Part shown: piece after piece, positions 1,774-19,482 of the stretch
How positions within the stretch are numbered: position 1 is the stretch's first letter
Layout of the letters: each line of letters begins with the position of its first letter
Virus record (IMG/VR): IMGVR_UViG_3300035698_005031
Span: 1 to 23,382 of that record
Length of the DNA stretch: 23,382 nt
From: a virus
Direction: 5' to 3' (one strand)
Notes under the pieces: model-generated
The model's input: the letters and a program-made list of their open reading frames with translations, nothing else
Told to the model about the DNA's origin: nothing
The model's database searches: none
Position numbers and translations under genes: made by a program

Positions 1774-1932
1774 ATGGAAGATCAACTGATGCTGCTGGCC
1801 GAGGGCGGCGCGCCATTCGCAATCGTCTGCGCCACGCTGCTGCTGCTGGCGCGAATGTTCAAAGACGACATCGGCGCGTGGATTCGCGGAGATCGCAGCA
1901 ACCCGAAAGATTCAGGCGACCAGAGCGCCTAA
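1774..1932 (+). CDS. Small single-TM protein, candidate holin or antiholin
   Basis: The product is only 52 residues, starting MEDQLMLLAEGG. One hydrophobic segment (about 13-29, FAIVCATLLLLARMF) is followed by a charged tail with several Asp, Lys and Arg residues. ATG 1774 is preferred because GGAGAG lies 4 bases upstream; the in-frame ATG at 1762 has no such site. One membrane helix with a charged C-terminus, at the end of a lysis-like run, is compatible with a class III-type holin or an antiholin, but short one-TM phage proteins have many roles. Function is inferred only from topology and position. Confidence 0.5.
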   Translation: MEDQLMLLAEGGAPFAIVCATLLLLARMFKDDIGAWIRGDRSNPKDSGDQSA

Positions 1933-1939
1933 ACGACTT

Positions 1940-2024
1940 GCACGCGGGTGTGGTTCAACGGGCGAAGTCAGACTTCGGTCTGCCCCTGCGAGCCGCGCTC
2001 ATCTGGGGGCGGAGGCCCGCGTGC
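1940..2024 (+). ncRNA. Candidate structured RNA element
   Basis: A perfect 9-bp closing stem joins GCACGCGGG (1940-1948) to CCCGCGTGC (2016-2024). Inside it are CAGAC-TTCG-GTCTG (1969-1982), a stable UUCG hairpin, and CCCC...GGGG enclosing GAGC-CGC-GCTC (about 1983-2009). The 5' part (GTGGTTCAACGG) resembles a tRNA D-arm, so this may be a decayed tRNA gene rather than a new RNA. No CCA end or T-arm is present. It directly precedes the tRNA-like units. Confidence 0.35.
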
Positions 2025-2041
2025 AGGGTTCTTTGCAGTGA

Positions 2042-2117
2042 CGTGGGGAGAGTGTTGGTCCTCGCTGCGGTCTCATAATCCGCGAGTACGTGGGTTCGAT
2101 TCCCACCCCCGCCACCA
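2042..2117 (+). tRNA. tRNA-Met (CAT), weak 5' half
   Basis: The 3' half is canonical. The anticodon loop CTCATAA (2072-2078) has T33 and anticodon CAT at 2074-2076; the stem is GCGG/CCGC with one T-T mismatch. The T-arm is GTGGG-TTCGATT-CCCAC (2090-2106), followed by CCCCGCC, discriminator A and encoded CCA (2115-2117). Total length is 76. The 5' half is irregular: the acceptor CGTGGGG pairs at 6 of 7 positions with a C-C mismatch at the end, the D-stem is only GAG/CTC and T8 is missing. CAT could be elongator Met or tRNA-Ile decoded after lysidine modification. It may be functional, but aminoacylation cannot be judged. Confidence 0.55.
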
Positions 2118-2134
2118 ATTCAGGACGGGTGGAT

Positions 2135-2199
2135 CAGGTGGTGGAGAGAGGTCTGATCAGGACTTATGTGTCGCTGGTTCGACTCCCTCCCCCTGCAAA
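2135..2199 (+). pseudogene. Degenerate tRNA-like unit
   Basis: A possible acceptor CAGGTGG (2135-2141) matches CCCCCTG (2189-2195) at 6 of 7 positions. A hairpin AGGTC/GACTT with a 7-base loop (2149-2165) sits where an anticodon arm would be, but position 33 is G rather than T. The T-loop TTCGACT (2178-2184) has a broken stem and there is no proper D-arm or CCA. It looks like a shortened or recombined tRNA gene. An overlapping alternative fold, GTCG-CTGGTT-CGAC (2170-2183), resembles a D-arm. Confidence 0.25.
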
Positions 2200-2209
2200 A
2201 TCTCCGCAT

Positions 2210-2259
2210 ACCCCTTTACACGGAGGATGTCGGGGGTTCGAGTCCCTCTTCGCCCACCA
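2210..2259 (+). pseudogene. 3' half of tRNA-Val (TAC)
   Basis: From the anticodon loop onward every element is in its expected place: loop TTTACAC (2215-2221) with anticodon TAC, variable loop ATGTC, T-arm GGGGG-TTCGAGT-CCCTC (2232-2248), acceptor strand TTCGCCC (2249-2255), A, and CCA (2257-2259). No matching 5' half (GGGCGAA acceptor plus D-arm) lies directly upstream. A GGGCGAA occurs at 1960-1966, too far for a normal gene. A 3' half of this kind is what a phage attachment site in a tRNA gene looks like, but no integrase is visible here. Confidence 0.4.
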
Positions 2260-2261
2260 CA

Positions 2262-2299
2262 CGCAAAGCCGCGAGCTATCAACGCTCGCGGCTTTTGCG
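2262..2299 (+). terminator. Rho-independent terminator after the tRNA-like cluster
   Basis: AAAGCCGCGAGC (2265-2276) pairs perfectly with GCTCGCGGCTTT (2284-2295) across TATCAAC, with a TTTT at the 3' side and flanking bases extending the stem. The A-run at the 5' side would also permit termination from the other strand. It closes the late/tRNA transcription unit. Confidence 0.75.
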
Positions 2300-4276: not shown

Positions 4277-6459
4277 TGGCTTCCGCAGAATCATACGCAT
4301 TGATGAATGATGGCGTGAAGTTCCGGCCTGACAAAGAGCGCGGCGTCTTCTACGCCGAGGATTGGCTGCCGCACCACGCAGCCCTGCTGTCCTACTTGGG
4401 CTTCACGCAGAACCACAGCGGGACGTGGCAGCGCTCTGCTGCTGCGGAGTCGCACGATCACTACGACCCCGAAGAGCCGGGCTTCAGTCCCGATTTGTGG
4501 GAGCACCAGCTCGCGGGCTGCCGCTTGGCGATGGAACACATCGGATCGGGGCTCTGGCTCGACATGGGCACGGGCAAAACGCGCTGCGCGATTGAAGTGA
4601 TGGCACGCGGCAAGCACCAGCGGATCCTCGTGGTCTGCCCCAAATCGGTGATCCCTGTTTGGTACGAGCAGATTGAGCGCTGGTGGAAATTCGAGAGCGC
4701 CGCCAAGCCTGCGTTTATCAAGTTGAAGGGCAAGAATTCGCAGGCCAAGGCCGACGTGCTGATGAGCCTGATCGATGAGTGCACGAAGAAGATTCAGCGC
4801 ATCAACGGCGGTCGGCGCGAGCCGACAGTGGCCGACGGTGTGGTGGTCATCAACTACGACATCGTGCATATCCCCGCGATCAAGCAGGCTCTGGGCGACT
4901 GGGGGCCTGACCTGATCGTGTGCGACGAGGTCCACCGCATCAAGGGCCACGAGAGCAAAGCCAGCAAAGCGCTGGCGAAGCTGGCGCCGATGGCTCGCCG
5001 CCGGATGGCGCTCTCTGGCACGCCGCTCGCCAACGCTCTGGAAGACGCCTACGGGATTTACCGCTTCGTCAACCCCGCGATTTTCAGCTCGACGTGGACA
5101 GCCTTCAAAGCCCGCTACCTGAAGATGGGCGGCCCGAATGAGAAGTGGATCGTCGGGTATCGCAATGAAGAAGAGCTGAAGGCCCGCATGGCGACGTGCG
5201 CGATTCACGTCAAGAGCGAGGACGTGCAGGATTTGCCTGAGCAGCAGGATATCAGCCTACCCTTCGAGCTCTCGCCGAAGGCCCGCAAGGTGTACGACGA
5301 AATGGAGCAGGACATGATCACGCTCGTCGGCGACTCGACGGTCGAAGCCAGCAACGTGCTGGTGCGGATGCTGAGGCTCCAGCAAATCACCAGCGGCTAT
5401 GCGAAGGATGACGACGGCAAACTGGTCGGGCCCTTCTGCACGCAGCGGCAGGAGTTGCTGGGCGAGTTGCTGCGCGAGATCCCGAATCACGAGCCGGTCG
5501 TCGTCTTCTACAAGTACACGCCCGAAATCGCGCAGATTGAGTTGGCGACCGATCGCCAAGTTTTCCGCATGAACGGAGAGCAGAAGCAGCTCGACGATTG
5601 GAAGGCCAACTGCGCTCTGGACAAGGCCGACGGCGCGGCCCCTGTGCTGGCCGTGCAGATTGACGCGGGCGGCGAGGGCGTTGACATGACGCTCGCTCGC
5701 TACGCCGTTTACTACTCGACGGGATTCTCGCTCAGCGCCTACGAGCAGAGCCGCAAGCGGATTCACCGCCCGGGCCAGACCAAGCGCTGCCTTTACTACC
5801 ACCTGAGTGCGATGGGCACGATCGACGAAGCGATCCGGAATGCGCTGGCCGCCAAGAAGGACACGGTCGACGACGTGATGGAGGCGATGCGGCATGGGGA
5901 AGCAAGGGCAGGACCCCTCTTCAAAGCCGCCGAGAGATCCGAGCGTGATTCGGGTGGGATCGATCGTGGTGACGAGGATGGCGATGATGCTGCGCGAAGT
6001 GAGACTCGGGGGCTGCCTGCTGGGGAATCACCCGGAGGATCAGGGGACGCTAAGAGCCTGGCTCTTCTCTCTCCGGAATACGCAGCGCTAAGGGTCGAGA
6101 AGGATCGCCTCTCCGACGAAGTCAAATCGAACAACGAAGCGATTCGGCGCTGCGAAGCGCAGATGCGTGATGCCAAGGAACGCGAAGGCGTCGGCAAAAG
6201 CATCGACTTCGAGGGCATCGGGCGCATCACCTTCGCCGACAAGAGGAACTTCAAAGTGAATGACGACGACGCGCTGATCGCGTGGCTGGACGCGAACGGC
6301 TTGGGCGACATCGCCAAGCGTTCCGCGCACGCGGCGACCGTCGGCAAAACCTTCCGTGATCTGATGGAGGCAGACGATGAATTCGCGCTGCCGCGCTTCA
6401 TGGACTGCACTGAGTTCGTTCAAGTGAGTCTCACGAAGGTCACGAAATCAAAGAAGTAG
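4276..6459 (+). CDS. SNF2/superfamily 2 helicase with extra C-terminal domain
   Basis: The product is 727 residues; the ATG overlaps the preceding stop. Helicase motifs appear in order: I DMGTGKT (96-102), II DEVH (217-220), III SGTP (247-250), and VI SRKRIHRPGQT (about 491-501), whose QxxxRxHRxGQ form is typical of SNF2 proteins. This is an ATP-driven DNA translocase, probably for replication fork or recombination remodelling. A low-complexity acidic linker (about 540-595) joins a C-terminal domain (about 598-727) with a coiled-coil start (EYAALRVEKDRLSDEV) and the pattern KVNDDDALIAWLDANG and FVQVSLTKV, a segment that is often a separate small phage gene. So this looks like a natural gene fusion. 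Confidence 0.85.
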   Translation: MASAESYALMNDGVKFRPDKERGVFYAEDWLPHHAALLSYLGFTQNHSGTWQRSAAAESHDHYDPEEPGFSPDLWEHQLAGCRLAMEHIGSGLWLDMGTGKTRCAIEVMARGKHQRILVVCPKSVIPVWYEQIERWWKFESAAKPAFIKLKGKNSQAKADVLMSLIDECTKKIQRINGGRREPTVADGVVVINYDIVHIPAIKQALGDWGPDLIVCDEVHRIKGHESKASKALAKLAPMARRRMALSGTPLANALEDAYGIYRFVNPAIFSSTWTAFKARYLKMGGPNEKWIVGYRNEEELKARMATCAIHVKSEDVQDLPEQQDISLPFELSPKARKVYDEMEQDMITLVGDSTVEASNVLVRMLRLQQITSGYAKDDDGKLVGPFCTQRQELLGELLREIPNHEPVVVFYKYTPEIAQIELATDRQVFRMNGEQKQLDDWKANCALDKADGAAPVLAVQIDAGGEGVDMTLARYAVYYSTGFSLSAYEQSRKRIHRPGQTKRCLYYHLSAMGTIDEAIRNALAAKKDTVDDVMEAMRHGEARAGPLFKAAERSERDSGGIDRGDEDGDDAARSETRGLPAGESPGGSGDAKSLALLSPEYAALRVEKDRLSDEVKSNNEAIRRCEAQMRDAKEREGVGKSIDFEGIGRITFADKRNFKVNDDDALIAWLDANGLGDIAKRSAHAATVGKTFRDLMEADDEFALPRFMDCTEFVQVSLTKVTKSKK

Positions 6460-15595: not shown

Positions 15596-17089
15596 ATGCC
15601 CACCATCACCGACACAGCGAGCGGCGAGCTTGCCCGCCGTGAGTTGGCGCGGCGGCACTTGATGGACTTCGTGCATTTTGTATTCCCGACCAAGTACGAC
15701 GAGAACTGGTATCACCGCGAGTTCGCAGAAGCGCTCGAAGCTCTGGCACGCGGCGAGCGCAAGCGCCAGATGATTTTCACCCCTCCGCGCCACGGGAAGA
15801 GCGAGCTGCTCAAACACCTCGCAGCGTGGCAGCTTGGGCGCAATCCTGACTGCGAGATCATCCTGGGCACCTACGCGGCCAGCCTCGCTAAGAAGTTTGT
15901 CAAAGACGTCAAGAAGATCATGCGCTGCGAGGCGTACCAGCGCCTCTTCCCTGCGACGCGCATCTCGCGCAGGGGCGGCGACGGAGAGGACACATCGCTT
16001 GAGTTCACGATTGCTGGCCGCAAGGGCAGCCTCAAAGGTGCTGGTGTCGGCGGAGGCATCACCGGGCGCGGCTTCGATCTCGGCATTATCGACGATCCGT
16101 TTAGGGGTCGCGCTGAAGCAGAGTCTGAGACGATTCGCGAGAACGTGTGGGACTGGTATACCAGTGATTTTCTGACACGGCAGGAGGGCACAGCGCCCAT
16201 CGTTGTCGTTCACACGCGCTGGCATGAGGATGACCTCGCTGGCCGCCTGCTGAGCGGCGACTACGGCGACCCCACACGGTGGTCCGTGGTGAGCTACCCG
16301 GCGGTGAACGACGACGGCGAGGCACTGTGGCCTGCGAAATTTGATCTTGAGCATTTGGCACAAGTGAGGCTGACGGGCGGCGAGCGCGACTGGGAGTCGC
16401 TCTACCAGCAGAACCCCGTGCCTCCCGGCGGCGACATCTTTAAAGTGGAAGAGTGGCTGCGACCCTGCTTCCGCTGCGACACGGCGACCGGGCCGGGCGT
16501 GCTCTACACGGGCCGCGACGGCACAAAGAGGCAGCACCCATTCGACACGATGAACCGCTACGTCACGGCTGACCTCGCCTCGACCGAGAAGACACACGGA
16601 GACTACACCGTGTTCGCGGTGTGGGGCGGCGGCGCTGGCGGCGAGCTTTTTCTGCTCGACGTGTGGCGCAAGCAAGTCGAAGCGCCGCGCATCTTGCCCG
16701 CCCTCGCGGCGCTCGCAGAGCTGTGGGACGTGCCTGTTCTCTGGCTGGAGAAAAACGGCATCGGACTGCCGATCGTGCAATTCGGCCAGCAGGCAAGGCT
16801 GCCGATTCGCGAGCTCGAAGCCCACCGCGACAAGGTCGCGCGGGCGATGGCCGCAACGCCGATCATGGAGCGCGGCGGGCTTTACGTCATGCAGAACACG
16901 CAGTGGCTCGCGCATTTCAAGCGCGAGCTGGCATCATTCCCGAACGGCAGGAACGACGACCAAGTTGATGTGCTGAGTTACGGCGTTCAGGTGTGGGAGT
17001 CGATGCCGCGACGGAGCCTTCTGCTCGAAGCCGAGATCGATGAAGCGCGCTCGCCACTCGACGGTCTGAGAATGCCGCCGCCGTGGTGA
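15596..17089 (+). CDS. terL: Terminase large subunit
   Basis: The product is 497 residues. The ATPase domain has Walker A PPRHGKSE (63-70) and Walker B LGIIDDPF (about 161-168), with GGGITGRGFD just before it. The nuclease domain shows VTADLASTEKTHGDYT (about 324-339) with its catalytic Asp, YVMQNTQWLAHFKRELASFP and the C-terminal NDDQVDVLSYG (about 451-461) giving the last acidic residues. It is the packaging motor that cuts concatemers and drives DNA into the prohead. GAGAGG lies about 10 bases upstream of the ATG. It belongs with the preceding small terminase and the portal further on, from which it is separated by an accessory insert. Confidence 0.95.
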   Translation: MPTITDTASGELARRELARRHLMDFVHFVFPTKYDENWYHREFAEALEALARGERKRQMIFTPPRHGKSELLKHLAAWQLGRNPDCEIILGTYAASLAKKFVKDVKKIMRCEAYQRLFPATRISRRGGDGEDTSLEFTIAGRKGSLKGAGVGGGITGRGFDLGIIDDPFRGRAEAESETIRENVWDWYTSDFLTRQEGTAPIVVVHTRWHEDDLAGRLLSGDYGDPTRWSVVSYPAVNDDGEALWPAKFDLEHLAQVRLTGGERDWESLYQQNPVPPGGDIFKVEEWLRPCFRCDTATGPGVLYTGRDGTKRQHPFDTMNRYVTADLASTEKTHGDYTVFAVWGGGAGGELFLLDVWRKQVEAPRILPALAALAELWDVPVLWLEKNGIGLPIVQFGQQARLPIRELEAHRDKVARAMAATPIMERGGLYVMQNTQWLAHFKRELASFPNGRNDDQVDVLSYGVQVWESMPRRSLLLEAEIDEARSPLDGLRMPPPW

Positions 17090-17164
17090 CCCGCCATGCC
17101 GGACAAAATTTCTTGCTTTTATGCTTGCAGGCGTCTGTCAATGCGGATACTCTCTCCCTTGTGA

Positions 17165-17192
17165 GGCCGCAAATCGTGGCCGCTGAAATGAT
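17165..17192 (+). repeat. Leader hairpin of the first duplicated gene
   Basis: GGCCGC-AAATC-GTGGCC forms a 6-bp stem with one G-U pair (about 17165-17181), followed by GCTGAAA. The same leader, with one base changed in the loop, lies before the second paralog at about 17960-17976. Retention of the leader with the gene suggests a functional RNA element or operator that was copied together with the gene. Confidence 0.5.
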
Positions 17193-17208
17193 ACCGGGAG
17201 ACAGAACA

Positions 17209-17868
17209 ATGGCAATGGAACAAGCAGCAGCTCGCCGTCGCAACGGCACGACGCAAATCGAAATCGTAGAGACCATCGGCATTCTCACCATCCGGATGGA
17301 GGGCACCATCGATGACTCTTGGTACGAAGTCAGCAATGCTGACTTCGAGGCGCGTTGGTTCGGCAAGAAGCTCTTCAAGGAAGCGGATCGCATCGTAGAT
17401 CAAAGCATCGCCGATGGCGAGCAGATCGATTCCGACGTGGCGCAAGCGCGCGCATATGCTGAGTCACTGGCTGAAGCGCGGGCATTTTGCCGTGACCATC
17501 CCGGCACGATGACTGTTGTGCGCGTGCGCAATGACGATGACAAGCTGGTGCTGAACATCAGCGGCACGTTGAGCGCAGCCGAGCTGGAGTCTGCCAAGAC
17601 GAACGTCGCTGCGTATCACGCAGAGGCCCGCGATGACGGGCACGACGAGGACGAGCGCTATGTCTACGGTGAGGCTTCAGAGGACGGGGTGACACTGCGC
17701 GGGTACACACTCGATTGCGACGGGCGGGAGAACTGCGAACTTCATGAGATCCGCATGAAGACGGGCGAAGTGCGCCCGACCGACAGCCCGACCTACGGCT
17801 GGGAACCCGTGCTGCTCACGGTGCTCACGGTGCTGAAGTCAAGGACGCGCGCGAGACGACGTACATGA
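17209..17868 (+). CDS. Paralog A of duplicated unknown phage protein
   Basis: The product is 219 residues. The ATG at 17209 follows GGGAGA by 8 bases; the frame is open upstream but is not supported there. It shares IVETIGILTI (about 20-29), AESLAEARAFC, HPGTMTV, ISGTLSAAEL, VTLRGYTLD and LHEIRMKTGEVRPTDSP with the gene at 18003. The product is acidic, with a middle helical stretch, and is not recognised. Its C-terminus differs from paralog B: after PVLL it runs on through TVLTVLKSRTRARRRT instead of stopping at VSK, consistent with a local duplication of GGTGCTCAC that shifted the frame. Position between terminase and portal genes is an accessory slot in many phages. Confidence 0.6.
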   Translation: MAMEQAAARRRNGTTQIEIVETIGILTIRMEGTIDDSWYEVSNADFEARWFGKKLFKEADRIVDQSIADGEQIDSDVAQARAYAESLAEARAFCRDHPGTMTVVRVRNDDDKLVLNISGTLSAAELESAKTNVAAYHAEARDDGHDEDERYVYGEASEDGVTLRGYTLDCDGRENCELHEIRMKTGEVRPTDSPTYGWEPVLLTVLTVLKSRTRARRRT

Positions 17869-18002: not shown

Positions 18003-18569
18003 ATGGCAATGGAACAAATCGGAATCGTGGAGACCATCGGCATTCTCACCATCGTGAAGGAGTCCAGCACGGATGACTACTGGTACGTCGTCACCAATGC
18101 TGACAACGAGTCGCTTTGGGTCGGCAAGAATCTCGACGAGGAAGCTCAAAACGTCTGGGAAGACGCGCACGTCGATTACGCCGCGGCGCTCAAGCGCGTA
18201 GAGGCTGAGTCACTGGCGGAAGCGCGGGCATTTTGCCTCGAGCATCCCGGCACGATGACTGTTGAGCGCGTGCTCAATGACAATGACAAGCCAGTGCTGC
18301 GCATCAGCGGCACGGTGAGCGCCGCTGAGTTGGCGTCTGCCAGGACCGTCGTCGCTGAGGCCCGCGACGTCGTGCACGACGAGGACGAGTGCTATCTCTA
18401 TGGTGATGCGTCAGAGTCCGTGACCCTGCGCGGCTTCACGATCGATCCCCACGAGCAGGAGTGGGAGAACTACGAACTTCATGAGATCCGCATGAAGACG
18501 GGCGAAGTGCGCCCGACAGACAGCCCGACCGACGGATGGGAACTCGTGCTGCTCGATGTGAGCAAGTAA
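18003..18569 (+). CDS. Paralog B of duplicated unknown phage protein
   Basis: The product is 188 residues starting MAMEQIGIVETIGILTI, with GGGAGA 8 bases before the ATG. It aligns throughout with the gene at 17209: IVETIGILTI, AESLAEARAFCLEHPGTMTV, ISGTVSAAELASAR, EDECYLYGDASE and LHEIRMKTGEVRPTDSPTDGW. It is shorter in the N-terminal third and ends cleanly in VSK. The duplicate has diverged by many substitutions, so the duplication is not recent. It is followed by twin terminators, suggesting a separately transcribed pair. No family recognised. Confidence 0.65.
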   Translation: MAMEQIGIVETIGILTIVKESSTDDYWYVVTNADNESLWVGKNLDEEAQNVWEDAHVDYAAALKRVEAESLAEARAFCLEHPGTMTVERVLNDNDKPVLRISGTVSAAELASARTVVAEARDVVHDEDECYLYGDASESVTLRGFTIDPHEQEWENYELHEIRMKTGEVRPTDSPTDGWELVLLDVSK

Positions 18570-18582
18570 CCCCAAACATCCA

Positions 18583-18637
18583 AAGCCCGCTGCAATGCAG
18601 CGGGCTTTGATCGTGATCCCGCTGCATTGCAGCGGGC
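18583..18637 (+). terminator. Twin palindromic terminator-like hairpins
   Basis: The first is a perfect palindrome: AAAGCCCGCTGCA (18583-18595), central A, TGCAGCGGGCTTT (18597-18609). The second is CCCGCTGCA (18619-18627), T, TGCAGCGGG (18629-18637) followed by CTTTG. Each is followed by the same GGGCTTTGATC, so the hairpin was duplicated. The 5' A-run and the T-run make the first hairpin bidirectional. They end the transcription unit of the duplicated genes. Confidence 0.7.
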
Positions 18638-18652
18638 TTTGATCAAACAAAC

Positions 18653-18708
18653 AGACAGACAGACAGGGCCTACTCGATTCACCAACACGAACACGAACAC
18701 GAACACGA
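18653..18708 (+). repeat. Two microsatellites before the Ala-rich gene
   Basis: A CAGA tetranucleotide run (about 18653-18666) is followed by four perfect ACACGA hexamers (18685-18708). They lie upstream of the ribosome-binding site AGGAG (18713-18717) and ATG 18724. Repeat number could alter distances in the leader without changing the SD spacing. Confidence 0.8.
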
Positions 18709-18723
18709 ACACAGGAGAGAAAC

Positions 18724-19482
18724 ATGAAACTTTGTAAAGGCACTGGCGATCGCGCAACCAGGGGCTGCTGGATGGCAGCGCTGAGCATCTACGCGGAATC
18801 GAAGTGGAGTGATCAGCCGCCATGTGTACCGCCAACACTGCTGGTGCTATGCGTTCTCTTAAATGACATGCTGAGCACTGACGAAGAGCGGGAAGAGATG
18901 ATCGGCCCGGTGCTCTTCATGCCAGTCGGGGCAGACCCATCGCCGGCAGCAGAGCAGCAGCGTGCTGATCTCTGTTCTCGGTACGCGGTGACGGTGTTCG
19001 CACCGCTGGTGCTGGACAATGCAGCACTCCACGATGAGGCGACCGCGCTACGAGAGCTTCCAGCCGACACGAGCAGGGAAGAGCTACAAGCCGCATCCAG
19101 AGCCGTCTCCGATGCAGCCTACGCCGCTGCCAGAGCCGCCAACTCAGCCGATGCAGCCGCCAGAGCATCCAGAGCCGCCAGAGCAGCCTACACAGCCGAT
19201 GCAGCAGCCGATGCAGCCGCCGATGCCGCCAAAACCGCCGACGCCGATGCAGCCGCCGATGCCGCCAAAACAGCCAGAGCCGCCTACGCCTCCAGAGCCG
19301 CCAGATCCGGCTACGCCGCAACCTACACCGGCTACACCGCAACCTACGCCGCCTACTCTGATGATGTCTGCGTAGCTGATGCGCTGCTCGGACTCATCGT
19401 GGAGTGCTGCCGCGTGGGCGATTGCGCTGAGAGTAACCCTGAGCGTGAAGCTGAAACGCTTGAGCTGATTGCACACTGGTAG
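18724..19482 (+). CDS. Ala-rich low-complexity protein with conserved N-terminal domain
   Basis: The product is 252 residues; ATG 18724 has AGGAG 6 bases upstream. Residues 1-100 form a real domain: GCWMAALSIYAESKWSDQPP (14-33) with CVPPTLLVLCVLLNDML, later CSRYAVTVFAPLVL, resembling a conserved domain in some phage and actinobacterial proteins with a GCxM...SDxPxCV pattern. Residues 125-212 are low-complexity, dominated by Ala with Asp, Arg, Tyr and Thr (AADAAADAAKTADADAAADA). The C-terminus (about 213-252) has VADALLGLIVECCRVGDC. The DNA of the Ala-rich part is itself a GCC/GAT/CAG-type repeat. Role unknown; it may be a fast-changing accessory protein. Confidence 0.55.
   Translation: MKLCKGTGDRATRGCWMAALSIYAESKWSDQPPCVPPTLLVLCVLLNDMLSTDEEREEMIGPVLFMPVGADPSPAAEQQRADLCSRYAVTVFAPLVLDNAALHDEATALRELPADTSREELQAASRAVSDAAYAAARAANSADAAARASRAARAAYTADAAADAAADAAKTADADAAADAAKTARAAYASRAARSGYAATYTGYTATYAAYSDDVCVADALLGLIVECCRVGDCAESNPEREAETLELIAHW
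19100..19370 (+). repeat. Low-complexity GCC-rich repeat inside the Ala-rich gene
   Basis: Short units such as GATGCAGCCGCC and GATGCCGCCAAAA recur within the coding sequence, giving the AADAA pattern in the protein. In another frame the same DNA encodes Pro/Gln-rich repeats. Such regions are prone to slippage and length change. Confidence 0.7.

Follow-up and report, generated by a model that had tools for sequence, protein, structure and literature searches.

The tRNA-like region at positions 2042-2259 is probably a small phage tRNA array that is located at the end of a lysis region and has partly decayed. The window, by which we mean the whole 23.4-kb stretch of DNA analysed here, is an IMG/VR viral record that represents a fragment of a phage genome. 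It includes genes for a Mu-type portal, a Mu-F-like protein, a large terminase, a DNA methylase, a primase and an SNF2-type helicase. The tRNA region is placed between a group of small late genes (1095-1932) and the replication genes. By appearance only, these small genes look like a lysis cassette, and a family search returned no match for them. The array consists of three tRNA-derived units that are arranged in tandem on the plus strand and separated by 5-17 nucleotides. These units and their surroundings are as follows.

1774-1932, plus strand: small ORF preceding the array, encoding 52 amino acids with a hydrophobic stretch; holin-like by appearance only, with no match in Pfam or PHROG
1938-2030, plus strand: strongly folded intergenic element ahead of the array, closed by a 12-bp stem and containing two hairpins (z=-3.45)
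2042-2117, plus strand: tRNA-Met(CAT), full length with a non-standard D-arm (ARAGORN call, minimum free energy (MFE) cloverleaf, RF00005 22.6 bits, Smith-Waterman score 71)
2123-2200, plus strand: unit 2, a worn full-length tRNA (Smith-Waterman score 50, 5′-half p=0.006)
2215-2259, plus strand: 3′ half of tRNA-Val(TAC), 5′ half absent (Smith-Waterman score 83, 36-nucleotide exact 3′ match, 5′-half p=0.93)
2263-2299, plus strand: strong GC-rich hairpin forming a terminator-like end of the array (fold -28.0 kcal/mol, TTTT after)

The ancestry of the units was assessed by Smith-Waterman alignment to 80 real tRNAs, with a dinucleotide-shuffle null for each unit. Met scores 71 (null 28±3, maximum 35), unit 2 scores 50 (null 28±4, maximum 40) with an alignment spanning both halves, and Val scores 83 (null 28±3, maximum 37). 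The 3′ end of Val matches bacterial tRNA-Val exactly for up to 36 nucleotides (36 of 45 being the longest match among 26 contigs), and it is 93% identical over 44 nucleotides to a cyanophage tRNA-Val (E=3e-9). Its 3′ 30-mer is found exactly in these 26 bacterial contigs, which represent many phyla, and an exact search of viral contigs gave no hits. Since every unit scores above all of its shuffles and Val has these matches to bacterial and cyanophage tRNA-Val, the tRNA ancestry of each unit is well established. With the Rfam model RF00005, no unit attains the gathering score of 29 bits: Met scores 22.6 bits, and a 97-nucleotide match that ends in Val scores 16.9 bits.

The Met(CAT) unit has the paired acceptor (6 of 7), anticodon (4 of 5) and T (5 of 5) stems and the conserved T-loop (TTCGATT) expected of a tRNA, and CCA is encoded. 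Its MFE fold is a cloverleaf with a short D-like stem (GAG/CTC), and its best match in the 80-tRNA library is an ordinary tRNA-Met. There is a C.C mismatch at positions 1:72, which is reminiscent of initiator tRNAs. Initiator Met, elongator Met and lysidine-modified Ile are all candidates for the amino acid carried by this tRNA with a CAT anticodon. The unit is called by ARAGORN at default settings, which by itself is weak evidence, because constructs that join the Met 3′ half to shuffled upstream DNA are still called as tRNAs in 2-11% of trials. Although Met fails the RF00005 gathering threshold, units scoring 18-27 bits are also present in the arrays of two other phages that are described below. 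The gene probably retains the capacity to produce a tRNA, whose D-arm would be non-standard.

All three units had been described as combining canonical 3′ halves with 5′ halves in which the acceptor strand and D-arm are degenerate or missing. This description is accurate for Val, but Met is full length with most of its acceptor stem and a D-like stem, and unit 2 departs from the canonical form on its 3′ side as well. A simple cloverleaf score of our own was used to compare each 5′ half with shuffled upstream DNA. This gave p=0.003 for Met, p=0.006 for unit 2 and p=0.93 for Val. Because a number of small tests were run, with null models built by dinucleotide shuffling of local DNA, p values near 0.01 are unreliable. 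The 5′ halves of Met and unit 2 are nevertheless far from normal, as they score 11.7 and 12.8 compared with a median of 20.1 (5th percentile 14.1) for real tRNAs.

Unit 2 carries a canonical D-loop (AGGTGGTG) and 5 of 7 acceptor pairs (GGACGGG/CCCCTGC). The anticodon stem is AGGTC/GACTT and the loop, TGATCAG, lacks U33. Only 3 of 5 T-stem pairs are formed, AAA replaces CCA, and the MFE structure is not a cloverleaf. Unit 2 thus has no complete, well-paired cloverleaf; it is an eroded tRNA gene and most likely a pseudogene.

The Val(TAC) unit retains the anticodon loop TTTACAC, GGAGG, the variable loop, the T-arm, the acceptor 3′ strand and CCA. For its acceptor strand TTCGCCC, the best available 5′ partner forms 5 of 7 pairs and is located inside the T-loop of unit 2. 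The MFE structure is not a cloverleaf, and this unit too is most likely a pseudogene. An assembly error may be present at the junction of unit 2 and Val. A GGGCGAA at 1960-1966 had been proposed to complete the Val acceptor, but there are 7 copies of this sequence in the window where 5.0 are expected, and no D-arm follows the copy at 1960. This chance occurrence was therefore ruled out as the missing acceptor strand.

The same observations bear on the notion that these are split, permuted or intron-bearing tRNA genes, with the Val 5′ half supplied either by the GGGCGAA at 1960 or by the 5′ half of unit 2. When its threshold is loosened and introns are permitted, ARAGORN joins 2123 to 2259 across a 50-nucleotide ‘intron’ with 6 of 7 acceptor pairs. 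However, this union of two halves into a full cloverleaf is seen at the loosened threshold only. At 50 nucleotides, the insert falls short of the size of the group I introns known from bacterial tRNA genes. We regard a split or permuted arrangement as extremely improbable.

A second possibility is that the Val 3′ half at 2215-2259 is the core of an attP site, current or relic, wherein integration would restore a host tRNA-Val from the phage copy. A tyrosine-integrase attachment site is typically marked by a lone tRNA 3′ half that extends from the anticodon loop through CCA, and 3760 of 3919 tRNA-gene islands in the Islander collection have a 3′ fragment, with 2083 sites centred on the anticodon (PMC4383910). 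The Val fragment has this extent, because its identity to tRNA-Val starts in the anticodon loop, reaches the 3′ end of the gene and is then followed by the terminator-like hairpin. There are also four viral contigs with related terminases (L166, L167, L168 and L170) that hold att-type tRNA 3′ halves beginning at or near the anticodon loop. One of these, L170, shares with L161 a 49-bp att repeat, in which the fragment is matched by an intact tRNA-Ala at the opposite end of the prophage. Two bacterial contigs (L025 and L035) hold lone tRNA-Val 3′ halves as well, which are probably attachment sites of integrated elements.

However, an element that integrates in this manner usually carries its integrase adjacent to the site. 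In three of four control records an integrase is located some 100-300 bp from the tRNA or fragment, and the fourth, a short contig, has none. Neither a tyrosine integrase (PF00589) nor a resolvase (PF00239) is found across the 23.4-kb window, where phage genes extend for 2.2 kb on one side and 21 kb on the other, although the record is a fragment of the genome. An integrase could be encoded elsewhere in that genome, but this would be an unusual location. Moreover, the Val fragment is the third member of a row of tRNA units, and the sampled genomes match at most 36 nucleotides of its 3′ end, such that no host tRNA was found for the 45-nucleotide piece. Thus, the suggestion of attP-type fragments suits the Val breakpoint but not the gene content of the window, and we consider an attachment site unlikely. 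The breakpoint does count against decay, as an attP fragment would show precisely this boundary at the anticodon loop.

Three lines of evidence speak for a tRNA array and against an attachment site. First, all units are arranged in tandem on one strand with few bases between them, and a strong hairpin follows. Second, a search with the exact 3′ 28-mer of Met identified two other IMG/VR phage contigs (L171 and L172) with local arrays of 10-13 tRNAs, wherein a Trp-like unit and then Val(TAC) come after a Met unit. This is the same Met-X-Val order as in the window. The likeness is one of order, and homology may not extend throughout, since the similarity between unit 2 and the L171 Trp unit covers just 23 nucleotides at the 3′ end. 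The Met units of these arrays are likewise mismatched at 1:72 and have odd D-arm connectors. Their 5′ halves are identical between L171 and L172, while blocks of DNA from the same region differ at 8-17% of bases.

Third, the same two phages have second arrays (L193 and L194) that directly reveal a deletion sparing a tRNA 3′ half. A tRNA-Ser of 85 nucleotides in L193 (reverse complement of 346-430) is represented by only 47 nucleotides in L194 (minus strand, reverse complement of 363-409). The difference is one clean internal deletion of 38 nucleotides that leaves the T-arm, acceptor and CCA intact, and the flanking sequences are otherwise closely alike. This comparison of two related phages contradicts the argument that decay seldom leaves just the 3′ half untouched. 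The earlier suggestion of recombination between tRNA genes is compatible with Val in its deletion version, which has the same outcome as that seen between these phages.

If the region is a partly decayed array, the units would be co-transcribed. Met(CAT) would probably share a transcript with the late genes ahead of it and mature in the same way as other phage tRNAs, and unit 2 would be an eroded tRNA gene. The most likely event for Val is a deletion between it and unit 2, which would have removed the 5′ strands of the acceptor and anticodon stems together with the D-arm and left the 3′ half intact.

Perhaps, instead, all of the units are functional RNAs of odd shape, either tRNAs with reduced D-arms or decoys that act, for example, against tRNA-cutting defences. 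The 5′ half of Met is not random, and tRNAs with odd D-arms are kept in other arrays, including the Met units of L171 and L172, a Trp unit with a mini D-arm and a 59-nucleotide Cys unit without a D-arm in L171. However, no acceptor pairs are available to Val, unit 2 has 5 of 7, its T-stem is broken and it lacks CCA, and neither of these units folds as a cloverleaf. We find this explanation very unlikely. A related reading, in which this type of array selects for reduced or absent D-arms, Met works despite its non-standard D-arm, and unit 2 and Val are processed into stable tRNA-shaped pieces that play a part in infection (again possibly as decoys for tRNA-cutting defences), is also quite unlikely. 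The proposal of non-standard tRNAs with reduced D-arms does agree with Met, whose relatives with an exact 3′ match retain odd D-arms, but the window has no member of the D-armless class, since Met retains a D-like stem, a D-loop is present in unit 2, and Val has no acceptor.

The unexpected part of the analysis is located outside the window. At 5191-5249 on the minus strand of L171 is a tRNA-Cys(GCA) of 59 nucleotides that has CCA but no D-arm, and that is absent from the related L172. It has 7 of 7 acceptor pairs, a 6-bp anticodon arm with the 7-nucleotide loop CUGCAAA and 5 of 5 T-arm pairs, and its MFE structure is exactly this three-stem form. A limited literature search revealed no report of D-armless phage tRNAs, and nothing close was found on degenerate or truncated phage tRNAs. 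A Trp(CCA)-like tRNA of 71 nucleotides (minus strand, 5499-5569 in L171, and also in L172) is kept in both phages and has a possible mini D-arm (GCAC-AGG-GTGC), although its MFE structure is not a cloverleaf. Among metazoan mitochondria there are D-armless and reduced-arm tRNAs wherein the D-arm is lost or reduced and the T-arm and acceptor are kept. The Met unit and the L171 tRNA-Cys resemble these, but Met keeps a short D-like stem, and the mitochondrial tRNAs do not lose the whole 5′ half as Val does. These odd-D-arm and D-armless tRNAs of L171 and L172 are a more promising lead, because their charging and translational use can be tested directly. A further tRNA-like element (L005 3611-3744, with identical DNA in L019) is located upstream of a possible terS gene and has a perfect D-arm and T-arm but no anticodon arm. 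A 10-bp inverted repeat (TGATCATATC/GATATGATCA) surrounds the element, which scores 15 bits with RF00005 and has a fold z-score of -2.7.

Phage tRNA arrays in which some members are eroded are a known kind of system. Like the arrays of Xanthomonas phage XacN1, L171 and L172, the window has tandem genes on one strand with encoded CCA, Met and Val with one unit between, and both eroded and odd-D-arm members. It differs from them in having just three units, all below the Rfam gathering score and one of them reduced to a bare 3′ half; all listed units of L171 and L172 keep 6-7 acceptor pairs. The attP-type fragments catalogued by Islander (PMC4383910) share with Val the identity from anticodon loop to CCA and the hairpin that follows, but the window has no integrase and Val is embedded in a tRNA row. 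The tRNA-dependent lysogeny of actinobacteriophages (PMC10865867) has phage-borne tRNA genes in common with the window. However, in that system the phage tRNA is intact, its isotype is that of the disrupted gene and an integrase is present, whereas the window shows none of these. Shrinkage of phage tRNA arrays by clean deletions within or between units can generate perfect 3′ halves that mimic attachment sites or split genes. This is a caution for attempts to identify integration sites in viral contigs by means of tRNA fragments.

The hairpin at 2263-2299 starts 3 nucleotides past the Val CCA and is missing from a strict T-run terminator scan. A promoter scan for the array found none. A second strong, bidirectional hairpin (CAAAAACCCCGGCGGGGACGCCGGGGTTTTG) occurs directly past the array at 2323-2356. 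Ahead of the array, the start of the 1938-2030 element resembles tRNA-Gly (GCGGGTGTGGTTCAA), but the similarity is weak (p=0.003, with several tests made). This element was rejected as a fourth tRNA despite its strong fold, given a whole-unit similarity of 27 against a null of 30±3. Likewise rejected were tRNA-like stretches at 2440-2660, where whole units are at null level. Weak Rfam matches to tmRNA at 2008-2117 and 2090-2147 (21-25 bits, gathering scores 47-84) correspond to the tRNA T-arm and acceptor.

A search of IMG/VR by means of the primase, SNF2 helicase and portal gave no relatives, and among known phages the TerL and primase matches are below 40% and the portal has none. There are 95 loci with TerL relatives (28-39% identity), and terminase relatives overall are at most about 40% identical. 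These loci were rejected as a source of a homologous array, since gene order is not shared in any of them. No close relative was found that would show Val and unit 2 in an intact ancestral state, which counts against the decay reading.

Several other features of the window were observed. Between the terminase and portal genes is a tandem pair of paralogous genes (17083-17868 and 18003-18569, BLOSUM62 score 536) that have no Pfam or PHROG match. The ORF at 18724-19482 encodes a long, low-complexity repeat rich in Ala and Asp (TADAAADAA...), and it also has no family match. Finally, the intergenic region at 18568-18653 contains near-perfect tandem palindromes (CCCGCTGCAATGCAGCGGG...CCCGCTGCATTGCAGCGGG), which match several Rfam miRNA models merely through their hairpin shape.
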